From assembly GCA_021927905.1 (NCBI GenBank), contig LC537470.1, positions 1-36,047 of the forward strand: 36,047 bases of DNA, written 5' to 3'. Below the pieces are notes generated by a model. That model was not told the origin of the DNA and did not search any database. It was given only the letters and a program-made list of their open reading frames with translations. The translations under genes and the position numbers were made by a program. Origin of the DNA: Chaetoceros tenuissimus. Taxonomy: Eukaryota > Bacillariophyta > Thalassiosirophyceae > Chaetocerotales > Chaetocerotaceae. How positions within the stretch are numbered: position 1 is the first letter of the stretch; each line of letters begins with the position of its first letter. Below, in pieces: positions 2,237 through 36,035 of this stretch.

Positions 2237-3709
2237 ATGTTATATATTGAAAATATATTATCTTATATTTTAGTGTTACCTCTAATAGGTGCCTTTTTAA
2301 TATCTTTTATTCCGTCGTCAAATAGATCTATGTTACGATCTGTTGCTTTAAACTGTTCTTGTTTAACGTTTGTCTTGTCACTTTTATTATGGGTTTTTTT
2401 TAACAAATCTGTAGGTACTTTTCAGTTCGTTGAAAAGTTTTCTTGGATTCCAATTTTAAACATTAACTTCCCAATCGGTGTTGATGGTATTTCATTGTTT
2501 TTTATTCTATTAACAACATTACTTATTCCTATTTGTCTTTTAGCAAGTTGGGATAGTATTCAATACGATTTAAAAAAGTATTTAATTGCATTTTTAGTAA
2601 TGGAATTCTTTTTAATTGGAGTTTTTTGTGTTCTAGACTTATTACTATTTTACATTTTTTTTGAAAGTGTTCTTATTCCAATGTTTTTAATTATTGGTAT
2701 CTGGGGATCACGAGAAAGAAAAATTCGAGCAGGTTATTTTTTCTTTTTGTATACATTGCTTGGCTCTGTGTTAATGTTATTGTCAATTTTGTACATATAC
2801 TATCAAGTAGGTACAACAGATTATGAAGTATTATTAACTTTTTCATTCTCTCCACTAGAGCAAAAGATTATGTGGTTTGCCTTTTTTGCATCTTTTGCTA
2901 CAAAAGTTCCAATGGTTCCAGTACATCTTTGGTTGCCTGAAGCACACGTGGAAGCTCCTACTGCAGGATCTGTTATCTTAGCAGGGGTTCTTTTAAAATT
3001 AGGAACTTATGGATTTATCCGATTCTCTTTCCCACTATTTCCAGAAGCATGTTTCTATTTTGCACCATTTGTGTATGCAATGTCAGTTGTTGGTATTGTT
3101 TATACTTCTTTTACAGCGATTCGACAATCGGACTTTAAACGAATTATTGCGTATACATCAGTTGCTCACATGAACTTAGTAATGGTTGGTTTATTTAGTT
3201 TCAATGTTATTGGTTTAGAAGGTGCTATTTTACAAAGTTTAAGTCATGGGTTTGTTGCCAGTGCACTATTCCTTATTATTGGAGTTGTATATGATCGACA
3301 TCACACTCGAATGGTTAAATACTATGGAGGTCTTGTTCACACAATGCCTATTTACGTTTTAATCTTTCTTTTTTTTACAATGGCAAATATTGGTTTACCT
3401 GGTACTGGAAGTTTTGTTGGCGAATTTTTAATTCTAACAGGTTCATTTAAAGCAAACACAACAGTTACATTTTTAGGAGCTACCGGTATGATTATTGGTG
3501 GTTGTTACTCTTTGTGGTTGTTTAACAGAATTGCTTACGGTAATTTAAAAACACAATACTTTCAAAACTATTTAGATATCAATAAACGGGAATTCTTAAT
3601 TTTCTTTCCGTTAATTCTAGGTACTCTTGTAATGGGAGTATATCCAACCGTTTTTTTAAACCCAATTCATTTTAGTACAAATTTACTTGTGGAATTTATG
3701 TACTTTTAA
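2237..3709 (+). CDS. nad4: NADH dehydrogenase subunit 4
   Basis: Antiporter-like proton-pumping subunit of complex I (bacterial NuoM). The 490-residue product carries the family motifs FFESVLIPMF (141-150, conserved membrane glutamate) and KVPMVPVHLWLPEAHVEAPT (223-242, conserved lysine and the LPEAHVEAP loop), followed by a run of membrane helices including SHGFVASALFLIIG. Length is normal. The stop is TAA at 3707-3709 and rps13 begins 16 bases later. Confidence 0.97.
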   Translation: MLYIENILSYILVLPLIGAFLISFIPSSNRSMLRSVALNCSCLTFVLSLLLWVFFNKSVGTFQFVEKFSWIPILNINFPIGVDGISLFFILLTTLLIPICLLASWDSIQYDLKKYLIAFLVMEFFLIGVFCVLDLLLFYIFFESVLIPMFLIIGIWGSRERKIRAGYFFFLYTLLGSVLMLLSILYIYYQVGTTDYEVLLTFSFSPLEQKIMWFAFFASFATKVPMVPVHLWLPEAHVEAPTAGSVILAGVLLKLGTYGFIRFSFPLFPEACFYFAPFVYAMSVVGIVYTSFTAIRQSDFKRIIAYTSVAHMNLVMVGLFSFNVIGLEGAILQSLSHGFVASALFLIIGVVYDRHHTRMVKYYGGLVHTMPIYVLIFLFFTMANIGLPGTGSFVGEFLILTGSFKANTTVTFLGATGMIIGGCYSLWLFNRIAYGNLKTQYFQNYLDINKREFLIFFPLILGTLVMGVYPTVFLNPIHFSTNLLVEFMYF

Positions 3710-7103: not shown

Positions 7104-7660
7104 ATGAAACAATTTTCAAATCGTTATACCGTTAAAATACCAAACAATATTGAAGTCTTTCACTGTTCGGAACGACAAATTGTATTAATAAACGGCCCTT
7201 TAGGCAAAAAACTTTTAAACTTGAAAGTTCATGTTGAAATATGTCATAAACAAAATCTTATAAGAGTTTTAAGTTTAAATATTAAAAAAAAGCATCAAAA
7301 AATCTTTGTGGTACAACCGTCGCGCTTTTAAAACAATCTTTTCTAGATGTATCAACTACTGTTTGTAAGAAACTAAATCTGGTTGGGGTAGGTTTTAAAG
7401 CGTTATTAACTAAAACAGAACAGCATGATTTGATTCATTTAAAACTTGGCTACAGTCACGGTGTATATTTTAAAATTCCCGAGTCTATTGATATTAAATG
7501 TCACAAATCTGACAAACTGTTTGTCTTTGGTTCAAGTTGGAAACAAGTAACCCAAACAGCTGCACAAATTCGAAATTGTAAAGTACCAGAACCTTACAAA
7601 GGAAAAGGTATTTCTTACAGCGATGAAGTGATTAAATTAAAAGAAGGGAAAAAAGTTTAA
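7104..7660 (+). CDS. rpl6: Large-subunit ribosomal protein L6, reading frame broken near 7329
   Basis: L6 binds 23S-type rRNA near the GTPase centre. Residues 1-75 are read from the ATG at 7104 (KQFSNRYTVKIPNNIEVFHC..., the L6 N-terminal half) and end at a TAA at 7329-7331. The second half continues directly in the -1 frame from about 7328 with FLDVSTTVCKKLNLVGVGFK, then LGYSHGVYFKIPE and the L6 signature PEPYKGKGISYSDEVIKLKEGKK, and stops at 7658-7660. No family sequence is lost at the junction, so one missing base, or a one-base backward slip, at the run TTTTAAAA (7326-7333) reconciles the two halves to about 185 residues, a normal L6 length. A sequencing error in the homopolymer, a real frameshift needing recoding or editing, or two separate chains are all possible. 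An internal ATG at 7430 would miss the LVGVGF block. Confidence 0.85.
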
Positions 7661-9548: not shown

Positions 9549-10298
9549 ATGTGGTTTTTATTTGCAGGAAAACTAATGAGTGTTCTTTGTTTCTTTGTTT
9601 TTTTTCAAGGTGTTGCAGATCCATTAAATCTAGATATTGTAAATCGACTGTTTGGATGGTTTTTTTTAGAACATCTTTTTGAGGATTATGAAATAAACGC
9701 AGGAAAATTTTTTTTAATTAACGCTGATTTTCGTAAATTAATAAAGAATTTTCTAATTGTAGTTCGTAATATTATAATTTGGTCACATTTATTAACATTC
9801 GCAGAGTTTTTGTTAACAGGTTCTACTTTGTTTTTGCTTGTATACTTTTTATTTTACTTTGTAAAAACTAAGATAAAATATTCTGATAAAACAATATTGT
9901 TTATTTTAATCTATTATACTTTTATTTTGTACGTTCTGTTTTTAAAAACATTAAACTCTTTTAATCTATTTGATGTGTGTTTTTTACTCAAACCGATCTC
10001 CGTTGTTCTGCTCATTTTTAATTTTATGTTTTGCTTAGTTACATTTTTTTTAAATGGATTTTTTTTATCACTCTGCAACCAAACAAAGCTAGTATATAAA
10101 ACAATACTGTTTAAAACTGGCGTTATTTCTGTTTGCAGTATCTTTTCTATTGTAACTTTTATAAACAATGTTTTGATTGTTAACAATTTTAATAATAATT
10201 TTTTTCAAGAATCTTGCGTCAAGTTAACTTTTATTTATTCTTATTTTTATTATTTAATTTTTAAATATATAAATGCCAACAATAAATCAATTATGTAA
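9549..10298 (+). CDS. Unidentified multi-pass membrane protein (249 residues)
   Basis: I do not recognise this product. It is 249 residues, very rich in Phe, Leu, Ile and Asn, with roughly six hydrophobic segments (about residues 8-20, 70-105, 115-135, 143-175, 185-208 and 225-242). The N-terminal hydrophobic stretch is followed by a loop with acidic residues ([12 protein letters not shown]) before the main membrane block. It has none of the Trp-rich or His motifs of CcmC or CcmF, no Tat, Sdh or Atp signature, and no LAGLIDADG or GIY-YIG motif. It begins 22 bases after trnL(taa), and its last 26 bases overlap the rps12 start in another frame. An intact frame of this size in such a compact genome, with codon use like its neighbours, argues that it is a real, fast-evolving gene. 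Confidence 0.7.
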
Positions 10299-14480: not shown

Positions 14481-14951
14481 ATGAAATTTGGATTAAAAGA
14501 TTATAAATTACAAAAAATCGTAACTTGTTTTAAAAAAGAACCTTTAGTGTTTGTATTTAATGTGTCGAATACAAATTCGAAAAACTGGTTAAAAGTGGAA
14601 CAAACACTTCACAAATATGATATGAAATGTGTAAAAATTTCAAACAGTTTGTCAAAAAAGTCTTTAGAGAATTCTATCTTTAAAAATATTAGCTCCATGT
14701 TAAATGGTAATGTTTGTTTAATACACTTAAAAGACCCAAAAAATATGCCTGCATTACTTCAGGAAATTATTAAGTTAGACCCTACGTTAACTTTCTTAGG
14801 CGTAAAACTCAATAACAAAATTTACTCTGAAAGTCAAATTTTGAAGATTTTTAGCCTGAACTACAGTCAAAATGTAAGAGTTTTTAATAACTCATTAAAA
14901 AGACTGTTAAAGTTTCCGTATCAAAAACTTAAAAAAAAAGAATCGAAATAA
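14481..14951 (+). CDS. rpl10: Large-subunit ribosomal protein L10-like
   Basis: L10 anchors the L7/L12 stalk on the large subunit. The 156-residue product aligns by eye with the L10 pattern: the first strand PLVFVFNVSNTNSKNWLKVE (family V-x-x-x-x-G-L-x-V-x-x-x-x-x-L-R), helix and strand QTLHKYDMKCVKISNSLSKK (family L-R-x-x-G-x-x-x-x-V-V-K-N-T-L-x-x-x-A), then NGNVCLIHLKDPKNMPALLQ and LGVKLNNKIYSESQILKIFS (family G-G-x-x-x-G-x-x-x-x-x-x-x-v-x-x-L-A). The C-terminal stalk-binding helix is short. Residues are few in common, so the call rests on pattern order and length. Its stop overlaps antisense trnP by 9 bases. Confidence 0.7.
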   Translation: MKFGLKDYKLQKIVTCFKKEPLVFVFNVSNTNSKNWLKVEQTLHKYDMKCVKISNSLSKKSLENSIFKNISSMLNGNVCLIHLKDPKNMPALLQEIIKLDPTLTFLGVKLNNKIYSESQILKIFSLNYSQNVRVFNNSLKRLLKFPYQKLKKKESK

Positions 14952-19005: not shown

Positions 19006-21294
19006 ATGAAATCTTTAAAATACTTTCACATTAATAACGTAAAATTTAATTATGTATTGGAATTTCAAAGTAATCACAAAAATGATTACTGGAAACACAA
19101 TGCTCCTTTAATTGAATACTGTGAAACAATTGGTGTAAATATACCTCACTATTGTTATCATAAAAATCTGTCTATTTCAGGAAACTGCCGTATGTGTCTT
19201 GTTGAACTAAAAAACTCACCAAAACCTATTGTTTCGTGTGCTATGAGTGCAAAATCTTGTTTAAACAATAGTGAAGTTTTTACAAATAGCCCTCTTGTTA
19301 AAAAAGCTCGAGAGAACGTACTTGAGTTTTTACTATTAAATCACCCACTAGATTGTCCTATTTGTGACCAAGGTGGAGAGTGTGATTTACAAGATCAATC
19401 ACTTTATTTTGGTATTACCAAAAAAAGATTTTACAACTTTAAACGTGTTGTTACTGACAAAAACATTGGTCCAATTGTTAAAACAGTAATGACTCGATGT
19501 ATACATTGTACACGATGTGTTCGATTTGCTGCAGAAGTTGCTGGTACCGAAGATTTAGGTATGTTTGGTCGTGGGCTTGATAGCGAAATTGGAACTTACG
19601 TTACAAAAACTTTCCAATCAGAACTTTCTGGAAATATTATTGACTTATGCCCAGTAGGAGCTTTAACTTCTAAACCATACCCGTTTGTAAGCCGAAGTTG
19701 GGAATTAAAGCATGTTAACTCTATTGATTTTTCAGATGCATTCGCGGAAAACACACAAGTTTATTTAAAAAACAACAAAGTTGTAAAAGTGAATCCAGGT
19801 TATAACCCAAGTAGTAACACTACAAATTGGATTTCGGATAAAACAAGATTTGCTTTTGACGGTATGTTTTCTCCTGAACGACTATTAACAAACTTTGTTA
19901 AGTCTGGAACAAAAGAAGTACAAACTTTAAACTCTTGGAAAACTTTATTAAATGAAGTTATGTTAACATTATATTTTCAAGACCATTTAAATAAACACTT
20001 CTTGACAACAAACAATTTATATTTTGTATTCGATTCTAACGTAAGTTTAGAAGTTTTGAACTTATTGTCTATGTTTTCTAAAAAATATTCTTTTGTTAAA
20101 TTAAGAAAATCGGAAAACTGTTCACAAAACGTTGACTTAGAATCTGACTTCATAGCAAACAGTAGTAAAGATATGACAGAATCTTTAGAAAAGTCAACAG
20201 TTTGCTTACTTGTAGGTTTGAATTCGAGATACGAGAGCTCAAGCCTAAACGTTAAGTTACGAAAAAGAGCTCTTGCAGGAAATTTTAAAGTTTTTTCTAT
20301 TGGTTCTTCTCTTGACTTGACTTTTCCTGTATCAAATGTTGGACTAAGTATTGACACTCTAAAATCGATTGCAGAAGGTAATCACTTTTTTTCACAAGAA
20401 CTTGCTTCATCAAAATCTATGATTTTTGCAAGCTCGTCTCTTTTACAAAGAAAAGATGGTAAAAGTTTACAAAAACTACTAAAAACTATTAGTAACAAAA
20501 GTTTAAGCCCACTGTCTAATACAAGCAACTTGAATATAATTAACAGTAGCTTAAATGAAACAGGTGCTAATTACTTGAACAGTTTTAAATCTTTTACAGA
20601 AACAGATTTAAATTCGAGCTGTGGTGTTTATTTTTTAAACACAGCATCTCAAAGTTCCAATTTAAAAAAAATTGTAAACTTAAAACTGTTAAATTATTTA
20701 GACTCTAGTGACTCATTGCCTAGATTTTGTTTTGAACAAAACAATGGATCTTTACCTTATGCTGCTAACCTTGGTAGTACAGCTTATAATGTATATAATT
20801 ACGTTAATTTACCAAATAGTACATTTTTTGAAACAAAAGGTACATATCTTAATGGTGAAGGTTGTTTTAAAAAAAGTGTTAGAATTATACCGACAAACCA
20901 ACAAACAAAAGACGATTGGCAAATCTTACGAAAAGTTTTTGAAAACTCTAAAAAAATTAACTTTTCAAACAACTATAAAGATAATTCTTTATTAAGTTTT
21001 AACAGTAAAAGTTTTCAAAAATTTAAGAGTTTTAACGATTTTTTAACATGTGCAACCAACAATTTAACATCTAAAACAGTAGCAGATTATTTAAATTCTT
21101 CAACAGGTTACAACGTGGTTCCACTAAAAACGTTAAACGGATCGAAATCTAAATTATCAAATACCAAATTAAAAATTTGGATTAATGATTTTTATATTGG
21201 TGGAAAAGATCCTTATAGTAAACAATCAAGTACTATGATCAAGTGTTCTAGAAATTTCAGAACGAACAAACATACGTTTTCACATATAAATTAA
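19006..21294 (+). CDS. nad11: NADH dehydrogenase subunit 11 (75-kDa iron-sulphur subunit)
   Basis: Largest peripheral-arm subunit of complex I (bacterial NuoG), which relays electrons through several iron-sulphur clusters. The 762-residue product has the 2Fe-2S ligands Cys50, Cys61, Cys64 and Cys78, the His113/Cys117/Cys120/Cys126 set (NHPLDCPICDQGGECDLQDQ) and the 4Fe-4S ligands Cys165, Cys168, Cys171 and Cys215 (CIHCTRC and LCPVGAL). The molybdopterin-oxidoreductase-like second domain follows (TNWISDKTRFAFDGMFSPER, then a divergent, Ser- and Asn-rich stretch to the end). It is full length; many heterokonts carry only the iron-sulphur part or a split gene. The start is 15 bases past trnD; the last 150 residues are the least certain in function. 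Confidence 0.96.
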   Translation: MKSLKYFHINNVKFNYVLEFQSNHKNDYWKHNAPLIEYCETIGVNIPHYCYHKNLSISGNCRMCLVELKNSPKPIVSCAMSAKSCLNNSEVFTNSPLVKKARENVLEFLLLNHPLDCPICDQGGECDLQDQSLYFGITKKRFYNFKRVVTDKNIGPIVKTVMTRCIHCTRCVRFAAEVAGTEDLGMFGRGLDSEIGTYVTKTFQSELSGNIIDLCPVGALTSKPYPFVSRSWELKHVNSIDFSDAFAENTQVYLKNNKVVKVNPGYNPSSNTTNWISDKTRFAFDGMFSPERLLTNFVKSGTKEVQTLNSWKTLLNEVMLTLYFQDHLNKHFLTTNNLYFVFDSNVSLEVLNLLSMFSKKYSFVKLRKSENCSQNVDLESDFIANSSKDMTESLEKSTVCLLVGLNSRYESSSLNVKLRKRALAGNFKVFSIGSSLDLTFPVSNVGLSIDTLKSIAEGNHFFSQELASSKSMIFASSSLLQRKDGKSLQKLLKTISNKSLSPLSNTSNLNIINSSLNETGANYLNSFKSFTETDLNSSCGVYFLNTASQSSNLKKIVNLKLLNYLDSSDSLPRFCFEQNNGSLPYAANLGSTAYNVYNYVNLPNSTFFETKGTYLNGEGCFKKSVRIIPTNQQTKDDWQILRKVFENSKKINFSNNYKDNSLLSFNSKSFQKFKSFNDFLTCATNNLTSKTVADYLNSSTGYNVVPLKTLNGSKSKLSNTKLKIWINDFYIGGKDPYSKQSSTMIKCSRNFRTNKHTFSHIN

Positions 21295-28562: not shown

Positions 28563-29330
28563 TTAACCAAGTTCTAATTTAGTCATAATATAATGGTGGA
28601 ATTTTAAAGTTGGAAGTGATACTACCACAATTGGCATAAATCCATGATTTACACCACAAATTTCACTACATTGACCAAAAAATACACCAACTCGCTTAAT
28701 AAATAAGTTTAGTTGATTTAGTCTGCCTGGGCACGCATCAACTTTTAATCCAAAAGATGGTACTGTCCAACTATGTAGTACGTCAGCAGCACTTACAAGT
28801 AATCGTAAGTGTGTGTTTGTTGGTAAGATTACTCTTTTGTTTGTTTCTAATAATCGGAAATAACCTTGTTTTGTTTTAGGTAGTCCGTCTAAAACCATCA
28901 TATAACAAACGTATTTTAAACTTTGTTCTTGTTTTTGACAAGAATTAAAGTCTGAAATTTCATAACTCCAAAACCACTGATGTCCTAAAATTTTAAGAGA
29001 TAATTCTGGTTCTGAAATTTCGTCCATAGCATATAACAATGTAAACGATGGTGTTGAAAGAATTAATAAAATTAATGCTGGAATTGTTGTCCATACAATC
29101 TCTAGTTCTTTTGAATGAACGAATTTAGAATTATACTTGTTATTAAATTCTACAAAATAAAAAATTGTATAAGCTAGTAACCATGCAACAAATAGTACAA
29201 TTACTGTTAACAAAAATAATAAATGTTTGTTAAAAAGTAAAATACCTTCCATTGTAATACTTGCAGGTTCTTGTAAAGAAGTTTGCCAAAAAGCGGGGCT
29301 GTCACAAAAAATAGAAGAATTATAAATCAT
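28563..29330 (-). CDS. cox2: Cytochrome c oxidase subunit 2
   Basis: Electron-entry subunit of complex IV with the binuclear CuA site. The 255-residue product has two N-terminal membrane helices, the aromatic patch GHQWFWSYEISDF, ADVLHSWTVPSFGLKVDACP with the CuA histidine, and GQCSEICGVNHGFMPIVV with the Cys-x3-Cys-x3-His-x2-Met ligand set. Compared with most Cox2, CPGRLNQ replaces the common xPGRLNQ, adding a cysteine close to the copper site. A short insert (about residues 135-158, with two further cysteines) lies after the aromatic patch. It is the first gene of the minus-strand block, reading away from the non-coding region. Confidence 0.98.
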   Translation of the reverse strand: MIYNSSIFCDSPAFWQTSLQEPASITMEGILLFNKHLLFLLTVIVLFVAWLLAYTIFYFVEFNNKYNSKFVHSKELEIVWTTIPALILLILSTPSFTLLYAMDEISEPELSLKILGHQWFWSYEISDFNSCQKQEQSLKYVCYMMVLDGLPKTKQGYFRLLETNKRVILPTNTHLRLLVSAADVLHSWTVPSFGLKVDACPGRLNQLNLFIKRVGVFFGQCSEICGVNHGFMPIVVVSLPTLKFHHYIMTKLELG

Positions 29331-29471
29331 ATATGTTTTTTTAATGTTATTCTTAGGTTTAGCGTTTTGAAAAAAGCATTATATGTACTAATTCCAAAAT
29401 TAAAAAGTTATCATCATTATTAAACAAACTTAAGTTTAAACGATAGAAAAATATTTAGAATAAGTTCATTT

Positions 29472-29574
29472 GGCTTTTCCCTTCATAAAGGTCGAAAAAA
29501 ATGTGTATTATTTTTTTGAACACTTTTTAGAAAATACAAATGCTAAAACCGTAGATAATACTTTATTGATTTAA
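29472..29574. repeat. Outer inverted repeat, left arm (103 bases)
   Basis: Matches the reverse complement of 30541-30643 with 6 differences in 103 bases; the first 45 bases from the outer end are identical. It starts GGCTTTTCCCTTCATAAAGG and ends CTTTATTGATTTAA. The differences are all in the inner 58 bases. Confidence 0.95.
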
Positions 29575-29910
29575 TTTTTGGAATAAATCTTAAACTAAAA
29601 TCTGTCATCTAATCGTACTTTCGTTATTTCTAATATGTCAAATGTTTTTTGACTTCAAATTTACGTTTACTTAAATAAGTTTTCTTTTGAAATAATTACA
29701 GAAATAAGTATCGAAAAAAATTACCAATTAATTCATTAACTACTTGAAAAGTATACAGAATTTAAGATACTATTATAGAATTAATTATAATTAACAAAAG
29801 TTGAACGAATATAAAAACATTCATTGTTAAAATAAAACTATCTTATTAAATCAAGTAAATATTGCGTTATTTAGTTAAATACATATATTATACCCCCCTA
29901 TATACTTCTA

Positions 29911-29982
29911 TTCCCTTCATAAAGGTCGAAAAAAATGTGAATTATTTTTTAATGTATTTTTTATTCAGTAGTAAAGTACAAA
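29911..29982. repeat. Inner inverted repeat, left arm (72 bases)
   Basis: Perfect reverse complement of 30216-30287 over 72 bases. It starts TTCCCTTCATAAAGGTCG and ends TCAGTAGTAAAGTACAAA. Its first 40 bases are the same core element found in the outer arms, with one base different (TGTGA in place of TGTGT). Confidence 0.97.
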
Positions 29983-30071
29983 GTGCGTTAAAATTTTTTG
30001 AACCTTACACAAATTTTTGTGGTTTTTTCTTATTTGTCTGTTGCAAAATATTTTTTAATTTGTATAATGAA

Positions 30072-30085
30072 TTAACAATTGTTAA
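30072..30085. repeat. 14-base palindrome
   Basis: TTAACAATTGTTAA is a perfect palindrome near the middle of the inner spacer. It could be a protein-binding site, but such AT-rich palindromes also occur by chance. Confidence 0.35.
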
Positions 30086-30132
30086 GAATAGTTACAAATT
30101 TACTATATAAAACAATTAAATTATCTATGTAC

Positions 30133-30160
30133 ATTTCATGAGTTTTTCTCCTCATGAAAT
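30133..30160. repeat. Central hairpin (10-base stem, 8-base loop)
   Basis: ATTTCATGAG and CTCATGAAAT pair perfectly around the loop TTTTTCTC. It sits in the 233-base spacer between the inner repeat arms, about 45 bases from the centre of symmetry. The form (GC-containing stem with a pyrimidine loop) resembles light-strand origins of other mtDNAs, but that role is only a guess. Confidence 0.6.
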
Positions 30161-30215
30161 TTTCAATAATATTAAAATTAACGAACAAGATTATTGTCTA
30201 AAAATTTAAACAATA

Positions 30216-30287
30216 TTTGTACTTTACTACTGAATAAAAAATACATTAAAAAATAATTCACATTTTTTTCGACCTTTATGAAGGGAA
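30216..30287. repeat. Inner inverted repeat, right arm (72 bases)
   Basis: Partner of 29911-29982, identical over all 72 bases in inverted orientation. Together the arms could form a 72-base-pair stem with a 233-base loop. Confidence 0.97.
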
Positions 30288-30540
30288 AAGTTAAAGTAAT
30301 TTATTTGGACCACTTTTAATTATTTCACAATCTAAATCTATTCACTGTTAACAGGCAGTTTTATTTTGGAATTAATGTAATTTTTTAGAAAATGTTAGGT
30401 TTAAGTATAAAAACATCGTTTAGAAAACATAAATGCTTTGAATTAATCTTAAATTCATTTTCTCAAACGTTTACAAAAACGTGTTTACATTACGATAATT
30501 TATATGAAGAAGATTTCGTATTTAACATTTACTATGAAGA

Positions 30541-30643
30541 TTGAATCAATAAAGTATTACCTACTGTTTTAGCATTTGTGTTTTTTAAAAAGTGTTCGAA
30601 AAAATAATACACATTTTTTTCGACCTTTATGAAGGGAAAAGCC
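30541..30643. repeat. Outer inverted repeat, right arm (103 bases)
   Basis: Partner of 29472-29574 with 6 differences. It ends GAAGGGAAAAGCC about 50 bases before trnE. Confidence 0.95.
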
Positions 30644-30692
30644 GCTTTTACTATTTTTAACAAAAAAGTTTTGCTATTTATTTTTATAAAAG

Positions 30693-30764
30693 GTCTCTAT
30701 CGTCTAGTGGTTAGGACATTGCCCTTTCACGGCAATAACACGGGTTCAAATCCCGTTGGAGATG
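30693..30764 (+). tRNA. trnE(uuc): tRNA-Glu (anticodon TTC)
   Basis: Acceptor GTCTCTA/TGGAGAT with G-U pairs including the terminal one, the typical CGTCTAGTGGTTAGGAC D-arm of tRNA-Glu, anticodon stem TTGCC/GGCAA around CTTTCAC, T-stem ACGGG/CCCGT, discriminator G. First gene on the plus-strand side of the non-coding region. Confidence 0.96.
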
Positions 30765-31621: not shown

Positions 31622-33513
31622 TTGTATAAAAAGTAAAGCATTAAATGAATGCCTAAACATCAAAAACATTGCGGACGTTTTTATACGAAATTTTATTGTG
31701 AGTGCTATTAAGTGCTGAGAACGATAAATCTCCGTGTCGGAAAACCGAGCTTTTAAATTAAGCTTTCTGTCAAAACGTATTTTGGCAGAATTTTGAAAGT
31801 TAGCGAACTGAACCATCTAAGTAGCTAACAAAAAAATCAACCGAGACGTCGTTAGTAGTGGCGAGCGAACACGATATAGACTTAAAATAACAATCAAAAG
31901 TTTCTTAATTGAAAAAGCCATAGAAGGTTAATGCCCTGTAAAGATTGCTTATTGTTATTTTTCTAGTAAAACAATACAAGTCGTGTGTTGTTTAAAGATT
32001 GGGGACCCACCCTCAAAGTCTAGAATTTTTGATGATTGATAGTGTATTAGTACCGTGAGGGAAAGGTGAAAGTAGAGTTTAGTAAAATAAACCTGAAATA
32101 ATACTGAAATTTAATGCTGACAAGCAGTTGAAGCTTTTTATTCAAAAGTGACAACGTACCTTTTGCATAATGGATCAACGAGTTTATTTTAGTGGCGAGC
32201 TTAAGCGAAAGTGTAGGCGAAAAAAAATTAAGTTTTAAAAAGCATTTAAGTCTCTGAAATAAGACCCGAAACTAAGTGATCTAACCATGAGCAGGTTGAA
32301 TTTACAGCGGTAACGCTTATTGGAGGACCGAACCCGTGTATGTGGAAAAATACTGGGATGACTTGTGGTTAGGGGTGAAAGGCCAATCAAACTTAGAGAT
32401 AGCTGGTTTTCTGCGAAATCTATTTAAGTAGAGCGTTCAATTACTTTATTTTGGGGTAGAGCACTCGATAAATGATGGGAGCGTAAAGCTTTACTGAATT
32501 TAATGAAACTCCGAATACAAAATAAAAGACATTGAACAGACAGACTATGAGTGCTAAGATTCATAGTCAAGAGGGAAACAGCCCAGACTATTCGTTAAGG
32601 TCCTCAAAAATAGTTAAGTGAAAAAATTGTGAAGAATTTTAAACAGCCGGTAGGTAGGCTTGGAAGCAGCCATCCTTTAAAGAAAGCGTAACAGCTCACT
32701 GGTCTAAATTTTTTGCGGTGAAAATGTACATGGACTAAAACTATTTACCGAAACGATAGATTTATATTTTAAATGGTAGCAGAACGTTCTGTAAATCGAA
32801 GAAGATTTATGGTGACATAAATTGAAGAAATCAGAATTGAAAATGTTGATATGAGTAGCGACAAATAATGTGAAAAACATTATCGCCTTAAGTTCAAGGT
32901 TTCCGAGAAAAGGCTAATCCGTCTCGGGTTAATCGGTCCCTAAGAATAAAACGAAAGTTTTTTTTAATGGGTAAATAAGTAATTCTTATATTTTTGTAGT
33001 AATGACAAAACATGAAGATTATTTTTATTTTTAGGTTTAAATAAAAGTTTTTGATTGTTTTCTGGAAACAGTTCTACAAATAATAAAACCGTACTGTAAA
33101 CCGACACAGGTGAACAAATTGAGTAAATTAAGGCGCTTGAGTGAATTGTGTTGAAGGAACTCGGCAAAATGACTCCGTAACTTCGGGAGAAGGAGTAGCT
33201 TTTAGAGGGCAACCTTTAAAAGCTGTCACAAAATCGAGGACAGCGACTGGTTAATAAAACCACAGGTCTCTGCAAAGTTGTAATATGATGTATAGAGACT
33301 GACGCCTGCCCGGTGCTGCAAGTATAATAGAAAAAGTTTTGGCTTTGACTAGAAATCCCAGTAAACGGCGGCTGTAACTCTGACGGTCCAAAGGTAGCGA
33401 AATTCCTTGGCATTTAATTGGTGTCCTGCATGAATGGCGTAACGACTGTCCTACTGTCTCCAACACAACCTCAGTGAAATTGAATTCTCCGTGAAGATGC
33501 GGAGTACTTACGG

Positions 33514-33546
<33 letters not shown>

Positions 33547-33688
33547 GTTATGTATTGTAACAAAAACTTCTATGTGTAGCATATGTGGGAAATCGTTTTC
33601 AAATGTTTACGCAAGTAAATTATAAAGATATCAGTGAAATACCACTCTTAAAAGTTTTTGTTACTTATTATTTAAGACATTGCATAAT

Positions 33689-33737
<49 letters not shown>

Positions 33738-33869
33738 AAAGGTAAGTTCAAATTAAATAATTTTAATTGTAGAGCGTAATAGTATATTGCTTGCTTGACT
33801 GTAAGATTGACAAATCAAACAGGGACGAAAGTCGGTTATAGTGATCCGGTGATTCTGTGTGGAAAAGAT

Positions 33870-33910
<41 letters not shown>

Positions 33911-34346
33911 AATCACTCTCTAGAGACCCTATCGACGGAGTGGTTTGGCACCTCGATGTTGGATTATCGCATCCTGGAGCTGTAAGTGGTTCCAAGGGTT
34001 TGGCTGTTCGCCAAGGAAGGCGGTACATGATCTGAGTTTAGAACGTCGTGAGACAGTTTGGTCCCTATCTACCGTAAGCGCTAAAAAATTGAGAAGAGTA
34101 AACCCTAGTACGAGAGGACCGGGAAAAGTAAACCTATGGTGTATCGATTGTCATACCAATGGCATCGTCGAGTAGCTAAGTTTATAACAGATAATCATTG
34201 AAAGCATCTAAATGAGAAACTGGCTTCGAGATTAATTTTTTAATAGACGTAGTAGAAGACTACGTTAATAGGCTTGATGTGTAAGAGCTGTAAAGTTTTT
34301 AGCAAACAAGTACTAATTTCTTATAATTTTATATAGCTTGACTTTA
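31622..34346 (+). rRNA. rnl: Large-subunit ribosomal RNA
   Basis: About 2.7 kb of 23S-like rRNA. The 5' domain starts near AAGCATTAAATGAATGCC; GTAGTGGCGAGCGAAC (31855-31870) is the conserved domain I block, GATAGCTGGTTTTCTGCGAA (32398-32417) domain II, AACGGCGGCTGTAACTCTGA (33363-33382) domain IV, ACGCCGGGGATAACAGGCTA (33892-33911) the peptidyl transferase region and AGTACGAGAGGACC (34107-34120) the sarcin-ricin loop. The 3' end near TAGCTTGACTTT is placed by likeness to the bacterial end. No intron is seen. Both ends are approximate. Open frames within it, on either strand, are accidental. Confidence 0.96.
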
Positions 34347-34411
34347 AAAAATGTTTTTATAACATAGAGATTTAAATATTAAAGAGTTTTTAAATAAATA
34401 CTATTTAAAAA

Positions 34412-35161
34412 TTATTTGTTTTTGAGTTTGATCCTGGCTCAAGATGAACGCTAATAGTATGCTTTACACATGCGAGTTGAACGGATACTTTATGTATTAC
34501 GTAGCGAACGGGTGAGGAACGCGTAAAATTGTTACCTTTTAATTTAGGATAAAACTAATCAATTTTTATTTTGTTTTAAATTGAGAACTTTTGTAGTTAA
34601 TATTAAAAAAAAGTTATAATACATAACTTGTTAAAAGATACTTTTGCGTAAGATTAGGTAGTTGGTTGTTTAAAAGACTCCCAAGCCTGTGATCTTTAGT
34701 TGGTCTGAGAGGACGATCAACCACACTGGAACTGAGACAAGGTCCAGGCTAATTTTTTAGCCAGCAGTGAGGAATATTGGACAATGAACGCAAGTTTGAT
34801 CCAGCAATACTATGTGAATGATGACGGCTATTTTGGTTGTAAAGTTCTTTCGTTTAAGATGATAATGACATTATTAAAAGAAGTTTTAGTCCCGGCTAAT
34901 CTCGTGCCAGCAGCCGCGGTAATACGGGAGGGGCAAGCGTTATCTGGAATAATTGGGCGTAAAGGGTTCGTAGACGGTATTGTAAGTTATTTGTTAAATC
35001 CTAGAGCTTAACTCTAGAAAAGCATTTAATACTACTATACTAGAGTTTTGTGCAGAAGAGTAGAATTTCATGTCGAGGAGTAACGACTGCAGACACATGA
35101 AGGAATATCAGTAGCGAAGGCGACTCTTTGGCAAAAACTGACGTTGAGGGACGAAAGTGTA

Positions 35162-35193
<32 letters not shown>

Positions 35194-35959
35194 TACACTG
35201 TAAATGCTGAGTGCTGTAATTTAGTGAATATTTTGCTAGATTCTTTAAGCTAACGCCATAAGCACTCCGCCTGAGGAGTACGGTCGCAAGATTGGAACTC
35301 AAAGGAATTGACGGGGGCCTACAACAAGTGGTGGAGCATGTGGTTTAATGCGATAATCCGCGCAAAACCTTACCAACCCTTGACATAGAAAATAAACAAT
35401 TTTAGTTTTTTTAAATCCTTAAAATTGTTATGTTTTTTACAGGTGTTGCACGACTGTCGTCAGCTCGTGTCGTAAGATGTTTGGTTCATTCCTTTAACGA
35501 GCGCAACTCTTGTCTTTATCACGTATTTTACTTTTTAAAATAATTTTTATTTTTTAAAGCTTTATATGACACTATCAATGATAAATTGAAGGAAGGTGAG
35601 AATCAAGTCAAGTCCCTGTGGCCCTTATGGGTTGGGCTACACACGTGCTACAATGGAAATTACAATAAGTTACAAAAATTTTATTTAAGTTAATCTTTAA
35701 AAGTTTCCTTAGTTCGGATTACAAACTGCAACTCGTTTGTATGAAGTTGGAATCACTAGTAATCGCAAATCAGCATGTTGCGGTGAATATGTATCTTGGC
35801 CTTGTACACACCGCCCGTCACATGCAGAGAGTTAATTTTACTTGAAGTTTTCGTTTCAATATTAAAAATTCGATTTTTAATTTGTTGAAAACCATTGCGA
35901 AATTAATAATTTGGATGAAGTCGTAACAAGGTAGCTGTACGGGAACGTGTAGCTGGAAC
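34412..35959 (+). rRNA. rns: Small-subunit ribosomal RNA
   Basis: About 1.55 kb of 16S-like rRNA. Landmarks are GAGTTTGATCCTGGCTCA at the start (34424-34441), the 530 loop GTGCCAGCAGCCGCGGTAAT (34906-34925), GGATTAGATACCCTGGTAGT (35172-35191), AATTGACGGGGGCC (35305-35318) and the decoding region TTGTACACACCGCCCGTCA (35802-35820) with GTCGTAACAAGGTAGC. After the last helix the sequence runs AGCTGGAACAAAA, with no CCTCC, so the anti-Shine-Dalgarno tail is missing. The 3' end abuts trnM and the exact ends are estimates. Confidence 0.97.
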
Positions 35960-35961
35960 AA

Positions 35962-36035
35962 AATGAAATAGTTCAGTTGGTTAGAACGTTGGAATCATAA
36001 TCCAAGTGTCGGGGGTTCGAATCCCTCTTTCATTA
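35962..36035 (+). tRNA. trnM(cau): Elongator tRNA-Met (anticodon CAT)
   Basis: Acceptor AATGAAA/TTTCATT, D-stem GTTC/GAAC, anticodon stem TTGGA/TCCAA around ATCATAA, T-stem GGGGG/CCCTC, discriminator A. It lacks the three G-C pairs of the initiator and the tRNA-Ile2 features, so elongator Met is the best assignment of the three CAT tRNAs. It directly follows rns and, in a circle, precedes nad6. Confidence 0.88.

Follow-up and report, generated by a model that had tools for sequence, protein, structure and literature searches.

Mirrored copies of a 43-nt box in a putative divergent control region of the mitochondrial DNA of Chaetoceros tenuissimus

Described repeat regions and the mitochondrial genome of C. 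tenuissimus

The repeat regions of diatom mitochondrial genomes may hold the replication origin and are conserved neither in sequence nor in organisation (PMC7800273). In Asterionella, such a region consists of 24.9 kb of tandem repeats located between trnQ and nad11 (PMC7800273). The compact mitochondrial DNA of the centric diatom Eucampia zodiacus (36,162 bp) was reported to contain a pair of 129-bp inverted repeats which flank orf98 in intergenic DNA (PMC8024477). AT-rich control regions with long palindromes or inverted repeats were reported for insect and nematode mitochondrial DNA, and an origin function was suggested for them (PMC1762429). In the genome of the mitochondrion-related organelle (MRO) of the stramenopile Blastocystis, the nad2/nad11 spacer was described as a strand-switch spacer and possible replication origin (PMC5203790). 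A mapped mitochondrial promoter or origin of a diatom was not found in the literature searched, which comprised mainly titles and the openings of abstracts.

The spacer between cox2 and trnE of Chaetoceros tenuissimus resembles the repeat regions of Asterionella and other diatoms in being a single noncoding repeat region of the kind for which an origin was suggested (PMC7800273). In contrast to the tandem repeats of Asterionella, it contains short mirrored arms and is located at a strand switch. With E. zodiacus it shares an inverted pair around a short spacer ORF in a compact genome, whereas a single pair and no common box were described in the parts of that report drawn on here (PMC8024477). 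The control regions of insects and nematodes are likewise AT-rich and palindromic; they belong to an animal system, and four outward-facing copies of one box were not seen in the portion of that account used here (PMC1762429). The Blastocystis spacer also lies at a strand switch, but the sections of the report cited describe genomes devoid of repeats with spacers of mostly up to 207 bp (PMC5203790).

The window, i.e., the whole stretch of DNA that was analyzed, is the complete mitochondrial contig of C. tenuissimus with 36,047 bp and a GC content of 30.79%. For strain NIES-3715 a mitochondrial DNA of 36,047 bp with 30.8% GC (LC537470) and a nuclear genome of 41.0 Mb were reported (PMC8613185). 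The nuclear assembly comprises 41.03 Mb and yielded 63 matches to chlorophyll-binding proteins. The mitochondrial contig carries a stramenopile-type mitochondrial gene set including 24 tRNA genes, rnl and rns. TGA codons were absent from 14 of the 15 reading frames checked. The sole TGA was observed at codon 4 of the tatC frame, upstream of the first ATG (codon 25).

The genes are organized in two divergent arcs (Table 1). The leftward arc starts with cox2 and nad7, reaches cox3 and continues to trnL at 21.3 kb. The rightward arc contains trnE, trnS, nad3, trnM, trnH, rnl and rns and runs round to nad11 at 21.3 kb. Exceptions located on the opposite strand within these arcs are trnA, trnR, tatC, trnP, trnY, rps11 and trnD. 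A preliminary description of this DNA had placed the repeats at the point where transcription diverges, and cox2 on the minus strand and trnE on the plus strand indeed flank the repeat region. The cox2-trnE spacer is the main noncoding spacer and the largest gap in the gene table (1,362 bp compared to 274 bp for the runner-up). Its ORFs starting with ATG encode 52, 50 and 48 amino acids, of which the 48-amino-acid one runs into trnE. The 52- and 50-amino-acid ORFs were scanned for protein families. One matched no family and the other exhibited only a weak match to DUF2371 (E 0.35) far under the cut-off; its longer form starting with TTG gave E 0.079. A coding role was consequently dropped.

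Table 1. Positions of repeat elements and flanking genes in the window.
Feature	Position	Strand	Remarks
cox2	28563..29330	-	first gene of minus arc; Pfam COX2
cox2-trnE spacer	29331..30692		1,362 bp; strand-switch / putative control region
Outer left arm	29472..29574	+	97/103 vs right arm
Box A	29474..29516	+	43 nt
C6 run	29893..29898	+	just outside box B, in very AT-rich DNA
Box B	29908..29950	+	43 nt; differs from A at 2 positions and from B' at 1
Inner left arm	29911..29982	+	72/72
10-bp perfect hairpin	30133..30160		between inner arms; T-rich loop TTTTTCTC on + strand
Inner right arm	30216..30287	-	72/72
Box B'	30248..30290	-	43 nt; differs from A and from B at 1 position each
Outer right arm	30541..30643	-	97/103 vs left arm
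Box A'	30599..30641	-	43 nt; identical to A
trnE(ttc)	30693..30764	+	first gene of plus arc
rnl and rns	31623..35968	+	same arc as trnE; Rfam

Inverted arms and the common 43-nt box

Both nested pairs of inverted arms named in the preliminary description were recovered (Table 1). In the outer pair the first 45 positions are perfect (29472-29516 and 30599-30643). The repeats lie far above shuffled sequences, in which the longest perfect inverted repeat had a length of 24 (300 dinucleotide shuffles of 29331-30692) or 20 (20 shuffles of the whole window). The midpoints of the outer and inner pair are located at 30057.5 and 30099, respectively. Arm identity decays inward after approximately position 100 in the outer pair and abruptly after position 72 in the inner pair, and directly outside the arms it is near background. 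Gene conversion or selection, proposed earlier as the source of the arm identity, would fit this confinement to the arms.

Comparison of the arms revealed one 43-nt box that is common to all four of them and is located at the outer edge of each. This box had been overlooked in the preliminary description. Its columns are invariant across the four copies at 41 of 43 positions. The plus strand carries boxes A and B and the minus strand carries B' and A'; the copies are thus mirrored and face outward. One of the variable columns separates the pair A/A' from the pair B/B', while at the other B alone differs. Since B' is one base away from B and equally one base away from A, pairwise conversion is not clean inside the box. 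The arms as wholes clearly match in pairs, which does not hold within the box.

A search of the mitochondrial DNA with 16 nt and no more than 3 mismatches returned the four box places, and no further copy was detected with 29 nt when as many as 8 mismatches were allowed. A non-exhaustive search of the nuclear assembly found no other match. Between the outermost boxes and the adjacent genes lie 51 nt (trnE) and 143 nt (ATG of cox2). The likeness of the two inter-box spacers was not significant (63 of 500 shuffles).

The AT-rich DNA around the arms had been called otherwise featureless. This is not quite accurate, as a C6 run and a 10-bp hairpin are present (Table 1). The fold of 30110-30185 gave a z value of -2.7 on each strand. 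The window contains 10 hairpins with stems of at least 9, whereas the 10 shuffles contained 1-7 each. The 1,172-nt segment, taken as a single strand, folds largely via its arms with -241 kcal/mol, a value obtained without shuffle control. Thus, hairpins could form during strand displacement. The left outer arm alone (29472-29600) folded no better than shuffles (z -0.08). Long spacers make a double cruciform unlikely; here they measure 233 and 966-1082 nt, so that the extrusion suggested earlier is unlikely. Intrinsic terminators, i.e., a GC-rich stem followed by a T run, were absent between 29,200 and 30,800 (shuffle mean 0.2), and sigma-70-like sites were found at shuffle level (11 versus 11.9). 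Both readings of the region were dropped.

Related contigs and strand composition

Scanning of prokaryote assemblies with nad5 matched 592 stretches, 587 of which were confirmed. The best 80 of these 587 were kept and the top five examined; the other 75 were judged bacterial by title and identity only. The five (L015 to L019) are eukaryote mitochondrial contigs that were apparently misbinned in bacterial assemblies. Two of them were used in the comparison, namely L015 (JACUUH010000016.1, 41,259 bp, labelled as a gammaproteobacterial MAG), called M1 below, and L016 (PKEA01000050.1, 25,333 bp), called M2. L017, L018 and L019 (JAAEPD010000613.1, SEBM01000028.1 and CASEHG010000114.1, respectively) were set aside as distant or fragmentary. 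Identities of M1 and M2 to the window were 69% for nad5, 82-84% for nad7 (M1 84%) and about 84-90% for cox1 (M1 exons 84-90%). Judged by sequence, both are probably diatom-like. In M1 nad11 is split into two separate pieces, an arrangement which was reported for many Bacillariophyceae (PMC8024477).

Searches of other collections found no relative of the spacer. Searching viral_contigs with cox1 gave 7 loci, and tblastn of 31 window proteins (E 1e-5) matched only cox1 and cox2 in them. With nad7, 31 stretches of viral_contigs fitted the pattern and none was confirmed, and the 18-nt core found no stretch in this set. The spacer itself had no match among plasmids and phages at E 1e-5. In plasmids, nad7 at E 1e-100 matched 112 records (14 at 60-80% identity, 98 lower) that included no spacer relative; the best listed match reached 66.6% and the named genera were bacterial. 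Across 397 genomes of the family of G002, nad7 at E 1e-120 matched a single one, G002 itself.

The three longest perfect inverted repeats of M1 (42, 29 and 29 bp) all lie between trnE on the minus strand and cox1 on the plus strand. This site is upstream of trnE-trnH-rnl-rns and thereby similar to the site in the window. The region spans both contig ends, which is the assembly break, and further copies may hide there. A 29-nt core faces cox1 at 92 and 235 (direct, 143 apart) and faces trnE at 41,163 (inverted); elsewhere in M1 it was not found at up to 8 mismatches. The outermost elements are separated from trnE by 41 nt and from the ATG of cox1 by 140 nt (positions 263 and 404). The corresponding distances in the window are 51 and 143 nt, a comparison of two genomes that was noticed after the fact. 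The letters of the elements showed no significant similarity. The observed score was reached by 41-115 of 400 target shuffles and by 50-191 of 400 query shuffles in four comparisons, and other places in M1 scored above its elements. Homology of the element letters was consequently rejected.

M2 contains no corresponding region. A scan for inverted repeats of at least 30 nt found none in L018 or in the 22-kb piece of L015, outside of which the repeats of that contig are located; L016 contained a single weak pair (31 nt, 81%). Repeats had been expected at this place in related genomes. They are present in M1, the one readable relative, but Skeletonema is without repeat regions according to the part of the report considered here (PMC8520197). 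Apparently, not every diatom needs mirrored repeats.

The cumulative GC skew of the window exhibited a minimum at 30,345-30,353 for all four starting points, raw or detrended. The skew maximum was unstable, lying at 20,303 in the raw curve (start 30,101) and at 3,533 after detrending. As it varied with starting point and detrending, its use as a convergence point was dropped. In M1 the minimum was observed at 41,250-41,257 in the trnE-cox1 repeat region, and the maximum at 20,121-20,161 by the convergence point, nearly opposite the minimum.

At fourfold sites of 22 genes in the window the skew was +0.46 for the plus arc, -0.37 for the minus arc and 0.02 for tatC and rps11, which are embedded in the plus arc. 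The values for plus-arc, minus-arc and embedded minus-strand genes were 0.10, -0.27 and 0.04 in M1 and 0.27, -0.15 and 0.18 in M2, respectively. In a post hoc test pooled over these three related genomes, the embedded genes (45 G/40 C) differed from the minus-arc genes (168/285; Fisher p 0.008) and weakly from the plus-arc genes (345/193; p 0.05). In the window alone the p values were 0.03 and 0.007, respectively. The embedded genes thus differ from both arcs, and consequently the skew follows the arc as well as the gene's own strand. This pattern is compatible with long polycistronic transcription as well as with replication from the region and does not distinguish between the two. The bidirectional origin put forward in the preliminary description may exist, but the skew minimum at the site is confounded with gene direction.

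A candidate control region and alternative explanations

Taken together, we favour with moderate confidence that the spacer controls divergent transcription through mirrored elements facing outward and that its arms are homogenised by conversion; it may also be the replication origin. Both the promoter and the origin role are putative. In such a region the four outward-facing boxes, two per side, would mark the starts of both divergent arcs. A nuclear-encoded single-subunit RNA polymerase may start at or near the boxes; a nuclear gene for a single-subunit RNA polymerase is present (RNA_pol PF00940, two adjacent matches). Tandem starts on each side would lead to two polycistronic arcs, and replication may be primed in this region as well. 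The inverted copies would pair and convert one another, which would keep the arms alike within each pair, and selection would hold the box itself. The control region proposed earlier for this point of divergence agrees with the largest spacer, the strand switch, the skew minimum and the repeats of M1 at a similar site.

The analysis provides an exact 43-nt candidate element that is present four times, together with the direction of every copy and the region in which starts are predicted. The comparison with M1 suggests that the mirrored layout, not the sequence, may be what the control regions of diatom mitochondrial DNA conserve. As a tentative and still doubtful generalization, diatom mitochondria might use mirrored tandem pairs of outward-facing promoter or origin elements at the strand switch by trnE and the rRNA genes. 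Their letters would change rapidly, whereas arm-to-arm conversion and selection would preserve the mirror symmetry, the copy number and the distances to the first genes. In that case the 43-nt box would represent the first mitochondrial promoter element defined in a diatom.

The elements could also be binding or priming sites for bidirectional replication only, with transcription starting elsewhere. For this reading speaks that the skew minimum falls into the region in both genomes, whatever the starting point or detrending, with the maximum of M1 nearly opposite. Moreover, tatC and rps11 lie in the plus arc without minus-arc skew (45/40 versus 168/285, p 0.008), a hairpin with a T-rich loop is located between the inner arms, and long palindromes and inverted repeats were reported for the mitochondrial control regions of insects and nematodes (PMC1762429). 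However, the maximum of the window is neither opposite nor stable, and the embedded genes differ from the plus-arc genes too (p 0.05 pooled, 0.007 in the window), i.e., skew and gene direction are mixed. The pooled test is furthermore post hoc and its three genomes are related. We regard a role in replication alone as rather unlikely. Noncoding repeats might instead have been copied by template switching and homogenised by conversion, with a functionless box. We consider such a neutral origin unlikely, since the edge of the box coincides with the outer edge of the arm in all four copies, always facing outward, and a similar layout occurs at the trnE-proximal strand switch of the distant M1. 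It would nevertheless account for the variation of diatom repeat regions in sequence and organisation among species (PMC7800273) and for the lack of significant letter similarity between M1 and the window. It would also agree with the reported lack of repeat regions in Skeletonema (PMC8520197) and with the dense variation among strains reported for a 400-bp stretch partly overlapping orf98 of E. zodiacus (PMC8024477).

Recombination between the arms, which would invert the enclosed segments and let several isomers coexist, appears very unlikely. The near-identical inverted arms are suitable substrates, but they measure just 72-103 bp, and only noncoding DNA would flip with the gene arrangement unchanged. 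Nested inverted repeats also look like nested insertions. A mobile element with terminal inverted repeats is highly improbable, as no target-site duplication (the 16-nt flanks share at most 4 and 3 nt), no recognisable ORF and, in the non-exhaustive search of the nuclear assembly, no further copies were found. Inverted repeats are a known assembly problem, and the contig may contain errors, as the apparent frameshift in rpl6 shows. Nevertheless, the arms differ at 6 of 103 positions, their spacers are unique, and comparable structures are present in M1 and, as reported, in E. zodiacus, which stem from other projects. The probability of an assembly artefact is consequently almost negligible.

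Three further observations concern the coding part of the window. The rpl6 gene (7104-7660) is split over two frames, one containing the N-terminal part and another the part matching Pfam L6 (7430-7657). This split apparently represents a frameshift or an assembly error; in M1 rpl6 is encoded in a single frame. An ORF of 249 amino acids (9549-10298) precedes rps12 and showed no family match at or near the cut-off. Another ORF of 156 amino acids (14481-14951) matched Pfam ribosomal L10 and overlaps trnP by 10 bp. Its place is that of the overlaps reported for orf158 and trnP in Eucampia and for orf124 and trnP in Durinskia, and all three ORFs may be rpl10.
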